Source: Halalkalicoccus paucihalophilus (lineage in GTDB: Archaea > Halobacteriota > Halobacteria > Halobacteriales > Halalkalicoccaceae). From it: a DNA stretch of 64,000 nt. Below, piece after piece: positions 5,341 to 10,770 of this stretch. The DNA lies in contig NZ_LTAZ01000004.1 in the NCBI RefSeq assembly GCF_001593955.1, forward strand, positions 248,001 through 312,000, read 5' to 3'. The notes beneath the pieces were generated by a model. It was not told the DNA's origin. It saw only the letters and a list, made by a program, of their open reading frames with translations, and did no database searches. The position numbers were made by a program, and so were the translations under genes. Within the stretch, counting starts at the first letter, position 1. Every line of letters starts with the position of its first letter.

Positions 5341-5571
5341 TCAGTCGAGCGAGATGTACGTCTTCGTCTCGGCGACGCCGTCGAGACCCTGTAGCTCCGA
5401 GGAGGCCGTATGCAACACGTCGTAGACCTCCTCGGTATCGACTTCGGCGATGATGTCGTAGTCGCCGGCGACGATGTGGGCCTCCGAGATCGCCGCGATC
5501 TCGCGGGCGGCATCGACCATCGCTTCGGCTTTCCCCGCCACCGTCTTCACCATGACGAACGCGTGAACCAT
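5341..5571 (-). CDS. Stand-alone Lrp/AsnC ligand-binding (RAM) domain protein
   Basis: A 76-aa protein made only of the effector-binding domain of Lrp/AsnC regulators, with no DNA-binding helix-turn-helix. The core ISEAHIVAGDYDIIAEV is the RAM signature. It is a paralogue of the protein at 10540-10770 (both 76 aa, sharing EAHIVAGD and a TYI-hydrophobic-D end), which is why I start it at 5571 rather than at the ATG four codons upstream. Such proteins may sense amino acids or modulate a partner; function is unproven. The gene is convergent with the E1 alpha gene, 2 bases away. Confidence 0.85.
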   Translation of the reverse strand: MVHAFVMVKTVAGKAEAMVDAAREIAAISEAHIVAGDYDIIAEVDTEEVYDVLHTASSELQGLDGVAETKTYISLD

Positions 5572-5646
5572 CGTCATTGACATACGCTATCGTGGATCAA
5601 AAGCCTTTGCCCGTCGGTGAGCGGCCGTCTCGGCTCGTGACCGCCG

Positions 5647-6063
5647 TTACTTCTGCTTCCGCTGGAACGCTCGGTGAAGGAAGGCAAGCGCCGCCCCCAG
5701 CATCGCGCCGTTCTTGATGAAGTGGTTCATCTCGTTTTGCTTCTGCTCGTCGGGGACGTTCCAGAAGTCGTGCATCGTCGGGGTCACGCCCGCGAGGAAC
5801 GTGACGACGGCACCCGTCGCGAGCCTCGGAAACCGCCAGAGGACGATCCCGACGCTCCCGAGGGCGAGCATCCCGCTCGTCAGCGGGACGATGCGGTCTG
5901 CGTACGTGATGTCCTTCGATTCGGCGTATGCGATCTGTCCCTCCATTCCCCGAAAGGCGTTGATCGCAGCGGCGAGTAACATCCCGCCGAACAGTAGTCG
6001 GCCGAGCAGTGCAGGCGGGTCCCGTTTCGTCGCGATGGAGTTCGATTTTCGTTTGTCTCCCAT
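5647..6063 (-). CDS. DoxX family membrane protein
   Basis: A 138-aa membrane protein with about four hydrophobic segments (GRLLFGGMLLAAAINAFRG; IVPLTSGMLALGSVGIVLW; ATGAVVTFLAGVTP; NGAMLGAALAFLHRAF) separated by the family's DFWNVPDEQKQNEMNHFIKN loop. DoxX relatives in Bacillus (CatD) are encoded with ring-cleaving dioxygenases and answer quinone or catechol stress. Here it is divergent from a VOC ring-cleaving dioxygenase with only 57 bp between start codons, containing a TATA-like box and a palindromic operator candidate. A joint role in detoxifying quinones is an inference from this context. Confidence 0.85.
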   Translation of the reverse strand: MGDKRKSNSIATKRDPPALLGRLLFGGMLLAAAINAFRGMEGQIAYAESKDITYADRIVPLTSGMLALGSVGIVLWRFPRLATGAVVTFLAGVTPTMHDFWNVPDEQKQNEMNHFIKNGAMLGAALAFLHRAFQRKQK

Positions 6064-6084
6064 ACACCCCTTCCGGTCGGTAGC

Positions 6085-6092
6085 TATTTATA
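6085..6092. promoter_or_regulatory. Bidirectional TATA-like box between doxX-type and dioxygenase genes
   Basis: TATTTATA reads TATAAATA on the other strand. Its centre is about 25 bp from the minus-strand ATG at 6063 and about 32 bp from the plus-strand ATG at 6121, so a single box could serve both divergent genes with leaderless or near-leaderless messages. The spacing is seen; the dual use is inferred. Confidence 0.5.
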
Positions 6093-6095
6093 GAT

Positions 6096-6109
6096 TTACC
6101 ACTTGGTAA
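6096..6109. promoter_or_regulatory. Palindromic operator candidate, site 1 (TTACCA-CT-TGGTAA)
   Basis: A perfect 6-bp inverted repeat with a 2-bp spacer lies between the TATA-like box and the dioxygenase start, overlapping the expected transcription start. A second copy (TACCA-GA-TGGTA) is at 7770-7781, beside the TetR gene. Both are followed by AAG and ACGTA. The best candidate ligand is the TetR protein at 7084-7722. Confidence 0.65.
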
Positions 6110-6120
6110 GAACGTAAATT

Positions 6121-7068
6121 ATGGGACAGATCAACGGTTTACATCACGTGACCGCGTTCGCGAGCGACCCACAGGCAAACCTCGATTTCTTCCGGACGGT
6201 GCTGGGACTCCGGTTCGTCAAGCGGACCGTTCGCTTCGACATTCCCGAGGAGATCTACCACTTCTACTACGGCGACGAGGTGGGCTCGGCCGGATCGATC
6301 GTGACGTTCTTCCCGGTCACCGACATGCCGGAGGGGAGCGTCGGGAAGGGCCAGCTCAGCGCCGCCGGGTTGGTGATTCCCGACGGCTCGGTCGAGTACT
6401 GGACCGACCGATTGGGCGAACACGACGTCGAGTACACCGTTGAGGAGCGCTTCGACGAGGCGGCCATCAGCTTCACTGACCCCGATGGAACTCCCTTCGA
6501 ACTCGTCACGGGCGAGTCCGACATCGAGGCGTGGGGCGACGGTCCGGTCCCCGCAGAACACGGGATTCAGGGGCTTCACAGCGTCACCGTTCACTCGAAC
6601 GATCCCGCCGGGAGCTTCCGGGCGCTCGAGACGATGGACTGGAACCGAGTCGGGCGCCACGACGAACCGCAGGCGGGTGACCGCGTCCGGTTCCAAGCCC
6701 CCGGCGACAGCAGGGGTGCGGAGTTCGTCGACGTGCTGATCCGTCCGAACGCTCCCCAGGGCGTGATGGGAACGGGGACCTTCCTGCACGTCGCCTTCGA
6801 CGCCGGCGAGAAGTGGGAACAGAGGGAATGGAGCGAGCGCTTTCGCGACGCCGACCTGATCACCACCTCCCGGAAGGACCGGGATTACTTCTGGTCGATG
6901 TACTTCACCGAGCCAGGCGGCTCGATCTTCGAGTTCGCGACCACCGGACCGGGCGTCACCCTCGACGAGGACGTTTCGGAACTCGGCGAGAACCTCCGGG
7001 TACCCGACTGGCTCGACGTCGACATCGAGTACATCGACGAACAGCTCCCTGACATCACCGTCGACTGA
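6121..7068 (+). CDS. VOC-superfamily ring-cleaving dioxygenase
   Basis: A 315-aa two-module glyoxalase/bleomycin-fold (VOC) protein of the type annotated as ring-cleaving dioxygenase (MhqA/MhqO and PcpA relatives), which open hydroquinone or catechol rings with Fe(II). Expected metal ligands are visible: His9 in GLHHVTAF, His223 in TFLHVAFD and Glu271 in SIFEFAT. The N-terminus NGLHHVTAFASDPQANLDF is typical. The gene is divergent from the DoxX gene and upstream of a convergent TetR regulator; a palindrome just before its start suggests repression. The actual ring substrate cannot be told from sequence. Confidence 0.88.
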   Translation: MGQINGLHHVTAFASDPQANLDFFRTVLGLRFVKRTVRFDIPEEIYHFYYGDEVGSAGSIVTFFPVTDMPEGSVGKGQLSAAGLVIPDGSVEYWTDRLGEHDVEYTVEERFDEAAISFTDPDGTPFELVTGESDIEAWGDGPVPAEHGIQGLHSVTVHSNDPAGSFRALETMDWNRVGRHDEPQAGDRVRFQAPGDSRGAEFVDVLIRPNAPQGVMGTGTFLHVAFDAGEKWEQREWSERFRDADLITTSRKDRDYFWSMYFTEPGGSIFEFATTGPGVTLDEDVSELGENLRVPDWLDVDIEYIDEQLPDITVD

Positions 7069-7083
7069 ACCCGTCCCCGGGCG

Positions 7084-7722
7084 TTATCGGGTTTCGGTGG
7101 GAATCTCCACACTGACGTTCGGGACGAGACGGGGGAGGACGAACCGGTCGATCGCCGCACGCGCCTGCTCGGGGGCCTCCTTTTGGCCCAGCGAAATCCG
7201 CCGTGCCCGGGCGGAGTGGATGACGTCGGTCAACAGCTGGGAGAACTCCATGGCGTCGACGTCCGCGAAGGTGCCGTCGTCGATCCCCGCCTGGATCACC
7301 TCGGCGAGCCCGACGACCATCCCCTCGTAGTGTTCGTTGAACAACTCTCTATGGGCCTCGTTGTGCTGGGCCTGCGAGAACAGCTCGTGATACACCTTCA
7401 TGCGCTCCCAGTGGTCGAACCCGTCGATGTCGGGGCCGAACATGCACTGGTCGATCCGGATCCCGAGGTGTTCCCAGTGGTCCTCGGCGCCGATCGTGTC
7501 GTCGTCCTTGTACTGGGCGATGACATACTCGAGGAACGACGAGATCAACTCGTGTTTGCTGTTGTAGTGGTAGTGGATCACGGGTCGGGTCATTTCGAAC
7601 TCCTCGCCGATGTCCCGCATCCGCAGGTCCGCGTAGCCATGCTTGCTGAGCGCGCGGAAGGTCGCCTCCATAATTGCCTCTCGTGTCCCCTCCGAGGACG
7701 CCCGCCCGTCGGGACTGCTCAT
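7084..7722 (-). CDS. TetR/AcrR family transcriptional regulator
   Basis: A 212-aa regulator with an N-terminal helix-turn-helix: REAIMEATFRALSKHGYADL, then MRDIGEEFEMTRPVIHYHYN and SKHELISSFLEYVI, followed by an all-helical ligand-binding half. It likely represses the flanking genes. The palindrome TACCA-N2-TGGTA occurs twice, between doxX and the dioxygenase and between this gene and the FAH gene, both beside TATA-like boxes. The second lies about 50 bp upstream of its own start, implying autoregulation. A TATA-like box 28 bp before its ATG suggests a leaderless message. The inducer is unknown; quinones or aromatic compounds fit the neighbours. Confidence 0.92.
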   Translation of the reverse strand: MSSPDGRASSEGTREAIMEATFRALSKHGYADLRMRDIGEEFEMTRPVIHYHYNSKHELISSFLEYVIAQYKDDDTIGAEDHWEHLGIRIDQCMFGPDIDGFDHWERMKVYHELFSQAQHNEAHRELFNEHYEGMVVGLAEVIQAGIDDGTFADVDAMEFSQLLTDVIHSARARRISLGQKEAPEQARAAIDRFVLPRLVPNVSVEIPTETR

Positions 7723-7745
7723 ACCGACCTATCGCGGTTCGAGCG

Positions 7746-7752
7746 TTTATAC
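7746..7752. promoter_or_regulatory. Bidirectional TATA-like box between tetR and the FAH gene
   Basis: TTTATAC on plus, GTATAAA on minus. It is 28 bp from the tetR ATG on the minus strand. On the plus strand it predicts a start near 7776, inside the second operator candidate. This layout mirrors the doxX/dioxygenase interval. Inference from spacing. Confidence 0.45.
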
Positions 7753-7769
7753 TCACCGCGCTGGAGATC

Positions 7770-7781
7770 TACCAGATGGTA
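7770..7781. promoter_or_regulatory. Palindromic operator candidate, site 2 (TACCA-GA-TGGTA)
   Basis: A perfect 5-bp inverted repeat with a 2-bp spacer, followed by AGACGTA as at site 1 (AGAACGTA). It overlaps the predicted start of the plus-strand transcript and lies upstream of the tetR TATA-like box, so binding could control both directions. Confidence 0.65.
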
Positions 7782-7787
7782 AGACGT

Positions 7788-7850
7788 ATGTGGCTGTGCG
7801 TCACATGGTGGACCATGAATACCAGCGACGAACGCGAGGCGGAACGATGA
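7788..7850 (+). CDS. Possible 20-residue Trp-rich leader ORF
   Basis: An ATG 12 bases after the predicted transcription start opens a 20-codon frame beginning MWLCVTWWTMN, with three Trp in the first eight residues, and ends in a TGA that overlaps the ATG of the FAH gene (ATGA at 7847-7850). The overlap suggests translational coupling. No ribosome-binding site is obvious. It may be a leader peptide or simply a chance frame in a 5' untranslated region. Confidence 0.35.
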   Translation: MWLCVTWWTMNTSDEREAER

Positions 7851-8731
7851 GGCTCGGCCAGTTCGAATCGGAGGCTGAGAACGAACCGTGGGCGGGCGTC
7901 CGCCACGAGGAAGGTGTCGTCCATCTCCGAGAGGCGGCCGACGCCGCCGGAATCAGACTTCCGAACGATCTCTGTGGCGTCCTCGGCGAATGGGGCTGGC
8001 GCGAGAAGGTCGACCTCGCGCTCACGCATGCCCTCGAAACCGGGGTCGGGCTCTACGACCGGGCGGACCTCACCCAACGCGAGCCGATCACCGATCCCCA
8101 GAAGGTGATCTGTATCGGACTCAACTACGCCGACCACGCCGATGAAGGGGGATTCGAAGCTCCTGACGAGCCGGTACTGTTCTCGAAGTTCCCCCAGTCG
8201 ATCGCCGGTCCCGACGAGCCCGTCGAGTGGGACCCCGAGCTCACCTCGGCAGTGGACTACGAGGCCGAACTCGTCGCCGTGGTCGGTGAACGGGCGCGAA
8301 ACGTCTCGGATGAGGATGCCCTCGACTATGTCGCGGGCTACACCGTCGGCAACGACGTCTCGGCGCGGGACCTCCAGATGGCCGACGAGCAGTGGGTCCG
8401 GGGCAAGAGCCTCGATACGTTCGCGCCCCTCGGACCGGACCTCGTCACGCCCGACGGGATCGACGATATCGGCGACCTCGATATCTGGGCGGAGGTCAAC
8501 GGCGAGCGCCTGCAGGACTCGAACACCCGCCACCTGATCTTCGATATCGCCGAGCTCGTCTCCTTCTGTAGCCGGGCGTTCACCCTCGAGCCGGGCGACC
8601 TGATCTACACGGGCACGCCCGACGGCGTCGGCTACTTCCGCGAGCCGCAGGTCCTCTTAGAGGACGGCGACAGCGTCACCGTCGGGGTCGAGGGGATCGG
8701 CGAACTGACCAACACCTGTCGGCACACCTGA
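7847..8731 (+). CDS. Fumarylacetoacetate hydrolase (FAH) family protein
   Basis: A 294-aa member of the FAH / 2-hydroxyhepta-2,4-diene-1,7-dioate isomerase family, which cleaves or isomerises ring-fission products or decarboxylates oxaloacetate. The metal-binding acidic residues appear in SAVDYEAELVAVVGERARN, and VGNDVSARDLQ and YTGTPDGVGYFREP are strong family motifs. I start at MRLGQFESE, the normal family N-terminus; an in-frame ATG 14 codons upstream is also possible. It is preceded by a 20-codon ORF overlapping by ATGA and followed after 5 bases by a TatD-type hydrolase. A role downstream of the dioxygenase is plausible but inferred. Confidence 0.9.
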   Translation: MRLGQFESEAENEPWAGVRHEEGVVHLREAADAAGIRLPNDLCGVLGEWGWREKVDLALTHALETGVGLYDRADLTQREPITDPQKVICIGLNYADHADEGGFEAPDEPVLFSKFPQSIAGPDEPVEWDPELTSAVDYEAELVAVVGERARNVSDEDALDYVAGYTVGNDVSARDLQMADEQWVRGKSLDTFAPLGPDLVTPDGIDDIGDLDIWAEVNGERLQDSNTRHLIFDIAELVSFCSRAFTLEPGDLIYTGTPDGVGYFREPQVLLEDGDSVTVGVEGIGELTNTCRHT

Positions 8732-8736
8732 GTCCG

Positions 8737-9735
8737 ATGGCCCACGAGTATCCCACGCGACGGCCGACCGACCGCGAGCACCGCTCCGACGAGGCGGCCG
8801 CAGACCTCCCAGCCGAGCTGACGACCATCCCCTGGATCGACGTCCACAACCACGCCCATACGCTCTCGTGGAACGACCGCGAGAAGTTCGCGCTGAGCGG
8901 CTGTCACTCGATGGTGATGATGGCCGCCGCCTACTACTGGACGCCCTACAAACCCGTCGCACCAGAAGACGTCCGGTACCTCTGGGACGACGCGCTCGCC
9001 CGCCTCGGGCCGATCCGCGACGCCCACCCCTTCGACGCCTCGCTCGGGGTCGGGATCCACACCGGCGCGCGCGTCGAGGACTACGAGGAACTCCTCGACG
9101 TCATGCATGAGTACTGCGAACTCGACGAGGTGAGTGCCGTTGGCGAGATCGGGATCACCGAGTCCCAGCACGTCGCCGGGTGGGACCTCGAAGGACAGAG
9201 GGACGTGACCCGCCGCCAACTGGAGATCGCCGCCGACTACGACCTGCCGGCGATCCTGCACACGCCCGCGGATCTCAGGGACGCCGACTTTCCCGACCGG
9301 GTTCACGGCTCGATCCCCGGCTACGAGGTCGATTCCTCCCTACAGACCGAGCCCGTGCTCACCGGCGAGAACCCGAAACGCGAGGCGATCGAGATCGACG
9401 TCGAACTCGCCGCGGAGGCGGGACTGCCCGAGGAACGGGTAGTGCTTTCCCACGCCGACAAGACGGTCGCGCCGTACGTGTTGGAGAACACCGACTGCTA
9501 CGTGAGTTTTACCGTTAGCTACCCCTGGTTGTTGGGCGTCGAACCGCACCATGTCGCCGAAGTCGTCGCCGAGTACGGACCCGATCGGGTACTGGTCGAG
9601 ACGGATAGTGCAGGCATTCTTCGCAGCGATGTCTTCGCGTTCAAACGGACGGTCTTCGAGATGTACCGGATGGGGCTCGATATCGAAACGATCCGGCAGG
9701 TCGTCTACGACAACCCACATGAGCTAGTGGACTGA
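8737..9735 (+). CDS. TatD-related metal-dependent hydrolase
   Basis: A 332-aa amidohydrolase-fold protein. The HxH metal motif is at residues 37-39 (WIDVHNHAH), with the Glu in SAVGEIGITESQ, His in AILHTPADL, His in VVLSHADKT and the closing Asp in VLVETDSAGI. This order matches TatD-like proteins, though the sequence is closer to a haloarchaeal and EboC-like branch than to bacterial TatD DNases. The substrate is unknown. It starts 5 bases after the FAH gene, so the two form an operon probably under the TetR palindrome at 7770. Confidence 0.82.
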   Translation: MAHEYPTRRPTDREHRSDEAAADLPAELTTIPWIDVHNHAHTLSWNDREKFALSGCHSMVMMAAAYYWTPYKPVAPEDVRYLWDDALARLGPIRDAHPFDASLGVGIHTGARVEDYEELLDVMHEYCELDEVSAVGEIGITESQHVAGWDLEGQRDVTRRQLEIAADYDLPAILHTPADLRDADFPDRVHGSIPGYEVDSSLQTEPVLTGENPKREAIEIDVELAAEAGLPEERVVLSHADKTVAPYVLENTDCYVSFTVSYPWLLGVEPHHVAEVVAEYGPDRVLVETDSAGILRSDVFAFKRTVFEMYRMGLDIETIRQVVYDNPHELVD

Positions 9736-10539: not shown

Positions 10540-10770
10540 ATGGTTAAAGCATACGTCATGGTCAAAGCGAACACGGGGGAGGCGGACCGACTCAAGAACG
10601 CGATCGAGGAGATCGAAGGGGTCAACGAGGCCCACATCGTCGCCGGCGACGTCGACATCATCGCCAAACTGAGCGTCGACTCGCCCGCACAGGTCAAAGT
10701 AATCTCCGCCGACGGCATCCAGGGGATCTCCGGCGTCGAGGACACGCGGACCTATATCGCGATGGACTAG
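10540..10770 (+). CDS. Stand-alone Lrp/AsnC ligand-binding (RAM) domain protein, linked to trkA
   Basis: A 76-aa RAM domain without a DNA-binding domain, starting MVKAYVMVKANTGEAD and carrying VNEAHIVAGDVDIIAKL, the effector-binding signature. It begins 2 bases after the trkA stop, so the genes form a two-gene operon; this suggests the protein assists or senses something for K+ transport control. A paralogue of equal length lies at 5341-5571. Exact role unknown. Confidence 0.9.
   Translation: MVKAYVMVKANTGEADRLKNAIEEIEGVNEAHIVAGDVDIIAKLSVDSPAQVKVISADGIQGISGVEDTRTYIAMD

Follow-up and report, generated by a model that had tools for sequence, protein, structure and literature searches.

Positions 5647 to 9735 of the window, the 64,000-nucleotide stretch of Halalkalicoccus paucihalophilus DNA analysed here (contig NZ_LTAZ01000004.1, positions 248,001 to 312,000), contain a cassette of five genes and two palindromes, the putative operators O1 and O2. 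The genes encode a DoxX-family membrane protein, a ring-cleaving dioxygenase of the VOC superfamily, a TetR-family regulator, a fumarylacetoacetate hydrolase (FAH)-family protein and a TatD-type hydrolase. The doxX and VOC genes diverge from O1, and tetR and the FAH–TatD pair diverge from O2. The locus probably represents one version of a TetR regulon conserved among haloarchaea, composed of an operator-bound repressor, release by an electrophile or oxidant via residue Cys93, and detoxification enzymes. A TetR-linked regulon defined by the palindrome had been proposed in a first-pass annotation of the DNA, and it is supported by the association of the motif with TetR orthologues across and within genera and by its placement at core promoters.

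The strict pattern TTACCRNNYGGTAA was counted in 293 genomes of the order, of which 95 (own genome included) carry an orthologue of this TetR (TetR+) and 198 do not (TetR−). The orthologues in the 94 further genomes showed 54–94% identity. Matches at E 1e-44 to 1e-36 (35–44% identity) were excluded as orthologues; a looser cut at E 1e-35, which adds matches of 35–44%, gave 106 of the 293 genomes, own included. Genome G003, with a TetR fragment at a contig end, was kept among the 198 TetR− genomes in the overall count and excluded from the TetR− locus set and from the within-genus test. The strict motif was present in 81 of the 95 TetR+ genomes (159 sites) versus 47 of the 198 TetR− genomes (53 sites; Fisher p 4e-24), and a reversed control pattern gave 2 and 23 sites, respectively. 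In the 94 TetR+ relatives, 113 of 158 strict sites were at most 5 kb from tetR, within 0.97 Mb of sequence. Because the genomes are related, a permutation test was run within genera: in the 23 mixed genera, 143 sites were found in 82 TetR+ genomes versus 25 in 82 TetR− genomes, a difference that none of 20,000 permutations equalled. At the genus level, 22 of the 30 TetR+ genera included one or more genomes with a strict site near tetR.

The same picture was obtained from the 95 tetR-centred loci (0.98 Mb), in which the strict motif occurred 114 times and the reversed pattern and another palindrome of like design not at all. When one mismatch was allowed, 91 of the 95 loci had a site (196 sites in total), compared with 0 occurrences of the reversed pattern and 3 of the other palindrome. 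At the inner positions of the motif, A and G were about equally frequent (as were T and C on the opposite arm); the outer T/A was present in 86%. These comparisons show that the TetR and the putative operator belong together, and the palindrome is probably bound by this TetR itself. The check suggested in the first-pass annotation, that the palindrome should track this TetR, thus came out clearly positive across genomes, near tetR and within genera. It could be argued that the palindrome belongs to another regulator, such as the DUF7347/DUF7351 helix-turn-helix protein, and merely travels with tetR, as the operator precedes the DUF7347/DUF7351 gene itself in several genomes. This appears very improbable: by clustering, that gene was present in just four of the 95 tetR loci, and it is the presence of the TetR orthologue that predicts the motif, both across and within genera.

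Both palindromes of the first-pass annotation were found where it had placed them and were extended to 14 bp. O1, TTACCACTTGGTAA (positions 6096–6109), is common to the doxX and VOC promoters and identical in the window and four congeners. O2, CTACCAGATGGTAA (positions 7769–7782), lies between tetR and the FAH operon, with one outer base deviating from the palindrome, a position that suits autoregulation of tetR. The segment CTACCANNTGGTAA of O2 was kept in the window and the four congeners, though its spacing to the TATA-like element of tetR varies. As for the flanking bases noted earlier, AAG follows O1 in 5/5 of these loci and O2 in 3/5; ACGTA was unconserved in the congeners and was dropped as a part of the site. 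The core TACCANNTGGTA occurred at three places in the 3.98-Mb genome, and the reversed control pattern at two. The third core palindrome was set aside as an operator, being inside a coding open reading frame (ORF; L004 5849–6676, minus strand). With one mismatch to TTACCRNNYGGTAA allowed, the genome contained nine sites versus eight for the control, and with two mismatches to the core allowed, the window contained seven sites versus 4.5 expected. Only O1 and O2 therefore stand out in the genome. The last of these counts is the one that would favour chance palindromes in two intergenic regions, an explanation which the comparative conservation and the association counts refute and whose likelihood we regard as negligible. 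Neighbouring genes were compared with a panel that included pirin or pirin-like, TrxR-like, aldehyde dehydrogenase (AldDH)/DUF7347-7351, KatG, CoA-transferase III and DoxX genes. None of the seven one-mismatch sites outside the window had a panel gene within its 3-kb locus, and as one-mismatch sites are also no commoner than those of the control, we claim no wider regulon for this genome.

The position of the operators relative to the promoters was then considered. Two bases before O1 stands TTTATAG (positions 6087–6093; minus strand CTATAAA), a TATA-like element. Measured from its centre, the start codon of the VOC gene is 31 nt away and that of doxX 27 nt, so that it may serve both directions. 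The segment TATTTATAGATTTACCACTTGGTAAG was identical in 5/5 loci (the window and four congeners). A second predicted element, TTATACT (AGTATAA on the minus strand; positions 7747–7753), has its centre 28 nt before the tetR start and was also identical in the window and the four congeners. Operator-to-start distances were taken from the sites listed out of a set of 141, which includes 25 loci picked for panel matches and contains two sites twice (L163/L175); for this reason the presence of a panel gene near 135 of the 141 is descriptive only. Among these sites, the operator stood 11–12 nt from the start of VOC genes, mostly 12–13 nt from that of pirin genes of the main type and 14 nt from that of the DUF7347 gene. 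A second group of distances comprised the TrxR-like genes (32 nt), DoxX in the genus of the window (32–33 nt) and the amidohydrolase genes (mostly 35 nt). A clear TATA-like element was seen beside the operator of the VOC, DoxX, TrxR-like and amidohydrolase genes, and in the last three it comes after the operator. This placement at the core promoter, with a spacing that is in most cases constant for a given gene, is what would be expected if the TetR is a repressor. Leaderless transcripts are common in haloarchaea. If the transcripts are leaderless here, the operator-bound protein would hinder TBP/TFB or the polymerase, and occupancy of O2 would lead to autorepression of tetR.

The regulator itself is encoded on the minus strand (positions 7084–7722, 212 aa; TetR_N PF00440, E 1.6e-09, above the cut-off). 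Its orthologues were found in 30 of the 87 genera searched, the carriers including Halarchaeum, Natrinema, Haloprofundus, Halorussus, Halobellus and Haladaptatus. The best of five AlphaFold2 models (mean pLDDT 81.7, range 49.0–81.7) has nine helices, and the predicted fold is of the normal TetR type. The best Foldseek match was 3crj, a TetR of Haloarcula marismortui (TM up to 0.83 by query length). This closest solved structure (31% identity) is a paralogue, in whose aligned segment position 93 is not a cysteine. Cys93, the sole cysteine of the window protein, was present in 95/95 TetRs (the window and 94/94 relatives) and was the only cysteine of the aligned part in 90 of the 94 relatives, while none of 20 paralogue alignments, which come from 19 distinct places, had a cysteine at position 93. 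As the residue is invariant in the clade and absent in the paralogues, and by analogy with NemR, we infer as the best reading that Cys93 would be used for thiol-based sensing of an electrophile or quinone. NemR is the TetR repressor of the Escherichia coli nemRA-gloA system, which controls electrophile, quinone and hypochlorite defence using cysteines (PMC7464077, PMC4360819). The likeness lies in the family, in the cysteine-based response and in the NemR target GloA, a glyoxalase (PMC7464077). NemR is not an orthologue: it was a remote fold match (4yze, 14% identity, rank 32) and was outside the five sequence matches at E 1e-6. Of the recurrent neighbours to which a name was given, none was a NemA homologue.

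The 19 TetR paralogue loci contained no strict site. One-mismatch sites were found in three of them, L161 and L014, which are one and the same place, and L162. In L161, a TetR paralogue of approximately 40% identity and without Cys93 is accompanied by the near-operators TTACCGGTCGGTAG and TTGCCATATGGTAA at 5602 and 6937. Since these adjoin a paralogue that has no Cys93, they hint that related TetRs perhaps use related sites.

The genes associated with the TetR and its operator differed between relatives. The type A arrangement (doxX, VOC, tetR, FAH and TatD) was found in the window and four congeners. A variant with tetR, FAH, VOC and TatD in one direction occurred in G101, G206, G079 and G093, and the same set in a different order in G182; in G282 the TetR orthologue was present, and the matches nearby were fragments of VOC and TatD. 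Type B was composed of Amidohydro_1, FAH and TatD genes, often with a BNR-repeat protein, DoxX, CoA-transferase III or thiolase. In type B loci such as L076, L079, L081 and L082, a TRZ/ATZ-like amidohydrolase, FAH, TatD-type and BNR-repeat set stands beside this TetR; the operator is strict in L082 and of a near form in L076, L079 and L081. Type C combined DoxX and pirin with a TrxR-like pyridine-nucleotide oxidoreductase; the TrxR-like gene and pirin were each preceded by an operator. In type D (L067, L072, L074), pirin, Fe/Mn superoxide dismutase (SOD) and a DUF7347/DUF7351 helix-turn-helix gene preceded tetR. The TetR+ genomes also had 45 sites more than 5 kb from tetR, 26 of which were at the start of a panel gene; the distal aldehyde dehydrogenase genes with an operator had either the DUF7347 gene or pirin as their divergent neighbour. 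Of 51 sites in TetR− genomes, 45 were examined for neighbours, and none of these had a strong panel neighbour at the site. Three weak panel matches started near a site (L280, VOC, 43%; L293 and L294, TrxR-like, 40–42%), and in L278 and L279 there were matches to a regulator cluster that did not start at the site. The family names pirin, CoA-transferase, aldehyde dehydrogenase, amidohydrolase, SOD and DUF7347 were assigned by a Pfam-type check. The KatG family match was a fragment ended by the locus edge and hence below the whole-protein cut-off.

The description of the regulon as self-contained in the first-pass annotation therefore holds for the genome of the window, where two sites stand out, and is not supported as a general statement, because this TetR and its operator accompany different genes in relatives, where the regulon is spread over several loci. 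The enzyme sets attached by lineage would be hydroquinone dioxygenase–FAH, pirin–TrxR–DoxX, KatG, aldehyde dehydrogenase and amidohydrolase–FAH–TatD. The system looks like a widespread, undescribed stress-response switch. We propose, tentatively and with somewhat less than even confidence, that the single-cysteine TetR may be the electrophile/quinone sensor of haloarchaea, one regulator and one operator, with orthologues in the 30 genera mentioned, to which lineage-specific enzymes have been attached.

The five gene identities of the first-pass annotation agree with Pfam (DoxX, Glyoxalase/dioxygenase, TetR_N, FAA_hydrolase and TatD_DNase). The VOC gene (positions 6121–7068, plus strand, 315 aa; PF00903) encodes a predicted dioxygenase of the MhqO/PcpA type, with best PDB matches to MhqO (3oaj, E 5.5e-55), 1zsw (E 3.5e-42) and a PcpA-type enzyme (4huz, E 4.2e-40). 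In the alignment, His9, His223 and Glu271 occupied the metal-ligand positions, with an intact 2-His-1-Glu site. The metal-site motifs were present in all 10 orthologues of at least 80% identity and matched in 11 of 19 loci (those 10 and L195). All 10 VOC genes at this level had a site just upstream (six strict, four with one mismatch). The operator as a property of the VOC gene itself was considered and rejected, since among nine of the 12 VOC genes at 62–67% identity (L191–L199) only the tetR-adjoining L195 has a site, with one mismatch. This second sublineage, which shares 62–67% identity with the window protein, is presumably controlled differently.

The doxX gene (positions 5647–6063, minus strand, 138 aa; PF07681, E 5.8e-06) has an equivalent place in the four congeneric loci. 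On the other side of tetR, the FAH-family gene (positions 7847–8731, plus strand, 294 aa from the ATG at 7847; FAA_hydrolase PF01557, E 4.2e-73, 246 bits) had HpaG as its best PDB match (1gtt, E 3.4e-61); the searches were run with 7850–8731, leaving off the first residue. It is followed after 5 nt by the gene of a TatD/amidohydrolase-type metal-dependent hydrolase (positions 8737–9735, plus strand, 332 aa; TatD_DNase PF01026, E 3.4e-13), for which the only PDB match was AF_1765 (3guw, E 1.1e-08). The two genes presumably form one operon. Cleavage of a substituted hydroquinone beside its side chain would yield a beta-diketone, the type of compound that FAH-family enzymes hydrolyse.

We propose the following model. 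The TetR would bind tTTACCRNNYGGTAAa operators at the core promoter and repress its own gene together with doxX, the MhqO-like dioxygenase gene and the FAH–TatD operon. The signal would be a reactive electrophile or oxidant that acts on Cys93, plausibly a quinone, hydroquinone or related aromatic compound; the TetR would then leave the DNA, and the detoxification enzymes would be made. The inducer is suggested by the target genes and by one conserved residue. The dioxygenase would open the ring of an (alkyl)hydroquinone, the beta-diketone formed may be split by the FAH hydrolase, much as happens in the homogentisate route, and DoxX would serve membrane quinone redox. The two hydrolases might process ring-fission products, as was already suggested in the first-pass annotation. 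Its quinone and electrophile theme stands by homology only (the VOC protein resembles MhqO, operators precede pirin, aldehyde dehydrogenase and KatG genes in relatives, and Cys93 is invariant).

Alternatively, the TetR could be a general oxidant regulator responding to hypochlorite or peroxide. Cys93 would then detect reactive oxygen or chlorine species, and the main signal would be something other than quinones. The associated genes include KatG, pirin and TrxR-like genes as well as SOD neighbours, and exposure to reactive chlorine species is described for haloarchaea, whose known oxidant regulators include RosR and OxsR (PMC9426492). On the other hand, the targets in the window, a hydroquinone-type dioxygenase and FAH, include no peroxidase, and neither KatG nor pirin was near any of the seven other one-mismatch sites, in a genome that was not searched for those genes. 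We consider this alternative rather unlikely.

Several observations weigh against a single detoxification regulon under thiol control. A strict site within 5 kb of tetR was absent in 21 of the 94 relatives, and four of the 95 tetR loci had no site even at one mismatch. Among the VOC loci at 62–67% identity, eight of the nine examined had no site. The distance to the start was not fixed for CoA-transferase III (approximately 14–138 nt) and tetR (approximately 27–239 nt) among the sites listed, the operator overlapped the start codon (distance of about 0) in several pirin-type genes, and no clear TATA-like element was seen beside the operator of the pirin genes. Before KatG, the operator was found 146–149 nt upstream, a distance too great to fit the promoter geometry seen in other targets. 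KatG joined the panel after one adjoining site had been seen, and without it the distal count falls from 26 to 21 of 45. Eight of those 26 sites were at distant pirin-like genes (43–47 bits), one of which was checked in Pfam, and another of the 26 (L245) is only about 6.5 kb from tetR. NemR has six cysteines and is said to act through a Cys106–Lys175 bond or disulfides (PMC7464077), whereas the window TetR has one conserved cysteine. Cys93 could instead be structural, or a metal or ligand contact. Finally, many relatives pair this TetR with amidohydrolase–FAH–TatD–CoA-transferase genes and have no dioxygenase, which indicates catabolism as much as detoxification.

The last point bears on a different hypothesis, namely that the inducer is a non-reactive catabolic intermediate (an aromatic acid, a ring-fission product or a CoA thioester) held in the TetR pocket, the genes forming a degradative pathway and not a stress response. 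Apart from these partners, which in many relatives also include thiolase, FAH is closest to HpaG of 4-hydroxyphenylacetate degradation, and the nearest bacterial TetR structures include benzamidine and choline complexes. This hypothesis is unlikely, given the recurrence of pirin, KatG, TrxR-like, aldehyde dehydrogenase and SOD-neighbouring genes and an invariance of Cys93 that is confined to this TetR clade. As a separate observation, the KatG operator has a constant spacing in five genomes of one genus (L172, L236, L237, L242, L253).

The proposed regulon, with an electrophile-released TetR, would resemble bacterial quinone and electrophile regulons in kind, in a haloarchaeal form that is apparently undescribed. 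The MhqR and YodB/CatR regulons of Bacillus and Staphylococcus provide a similar quinone-responsive control of detoxification, and MhqO (3oaj) is the best PDB match of the window VOC protein. According to the first-pass annotation, DoxX-type CatD is a partner in Bacillus. The MhqO-type target is thus shared with the MhqR and YodB regulons; the regulator is a TetR, neither of the MarR nor of the YodB type. MhqR of Staphylococcus aureus is of the MarR type, binds a 9-9 bp inverted repeat and works by a mechanism that does not involve thiols (PMC6798810), compared with a TetR and a 14-bp palindrome in the window. The window VOC protein is, by alignment, of the same subfamily as the PcpA/LinE-type hydroquinone 1,2-dioxygenases and has the same metal-ligand positions (4huz). 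Those are bacterial enzymes for chlorinated hydroquinones, whereas the window protein is archaeal and its cleavage of hydroquinone is a prediction. FadR of Sulfolobus acidocaldarius is also an archaeal TetR-family protein, but controls fatty acid metabolism and other genes (PMC6449355). The haloarchaeal oxidant regulators named in the OxsR article are RosR, the small RNA SHOxi and OxsR; OxsR (TrmB family, thiol based) and RosR (PadR type) belong to other protein families (PMC9426492). Among the matches listed from the open-access literature (titles and starts of abstracts), no haloarchaeal TetR regulon of such a form was found.

Archaea have few known sensors of oxidants or electrophiles. A defined operator, a defined regulator clade in which one residue is the candidate sensor, and target genes listed from many genera are now to hand, making haloarchaeal quinone and electrophile sensing directly testable. 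Poorly characterised haloarchaeal pirin, TrxR-like, FAH, TatD-type and amidohydrolase proteins are thereby tied to one response.

Two features near the cassette may be added. Two small AsnC/Lrp-type proteins flank it (positions 5341–5583 and 10540–10770; tblastn similarity 44%). In Pfam, the first is matched by the ligand-binding domain alone, and the second sits past a TrkA-like gene; neither was matched in the congener locus L064, so both are seemingly outside the regulon. Within the cassette, a possible short leader ORF of 11 aa (positions 7815–7850, plus strand) starts 32 nt past O2. A short ORF of 11–21 codons was present before FAH in eight of the nine VOC-type loci examined, beginning 32 or 37 nt past the operator. 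Its stop overlaps the FAH start codon (ATGA) in the window, L063, L064, L065, L066, L073, L083 and L090, L070 being the exception, and it may be a translationally coupled leader.

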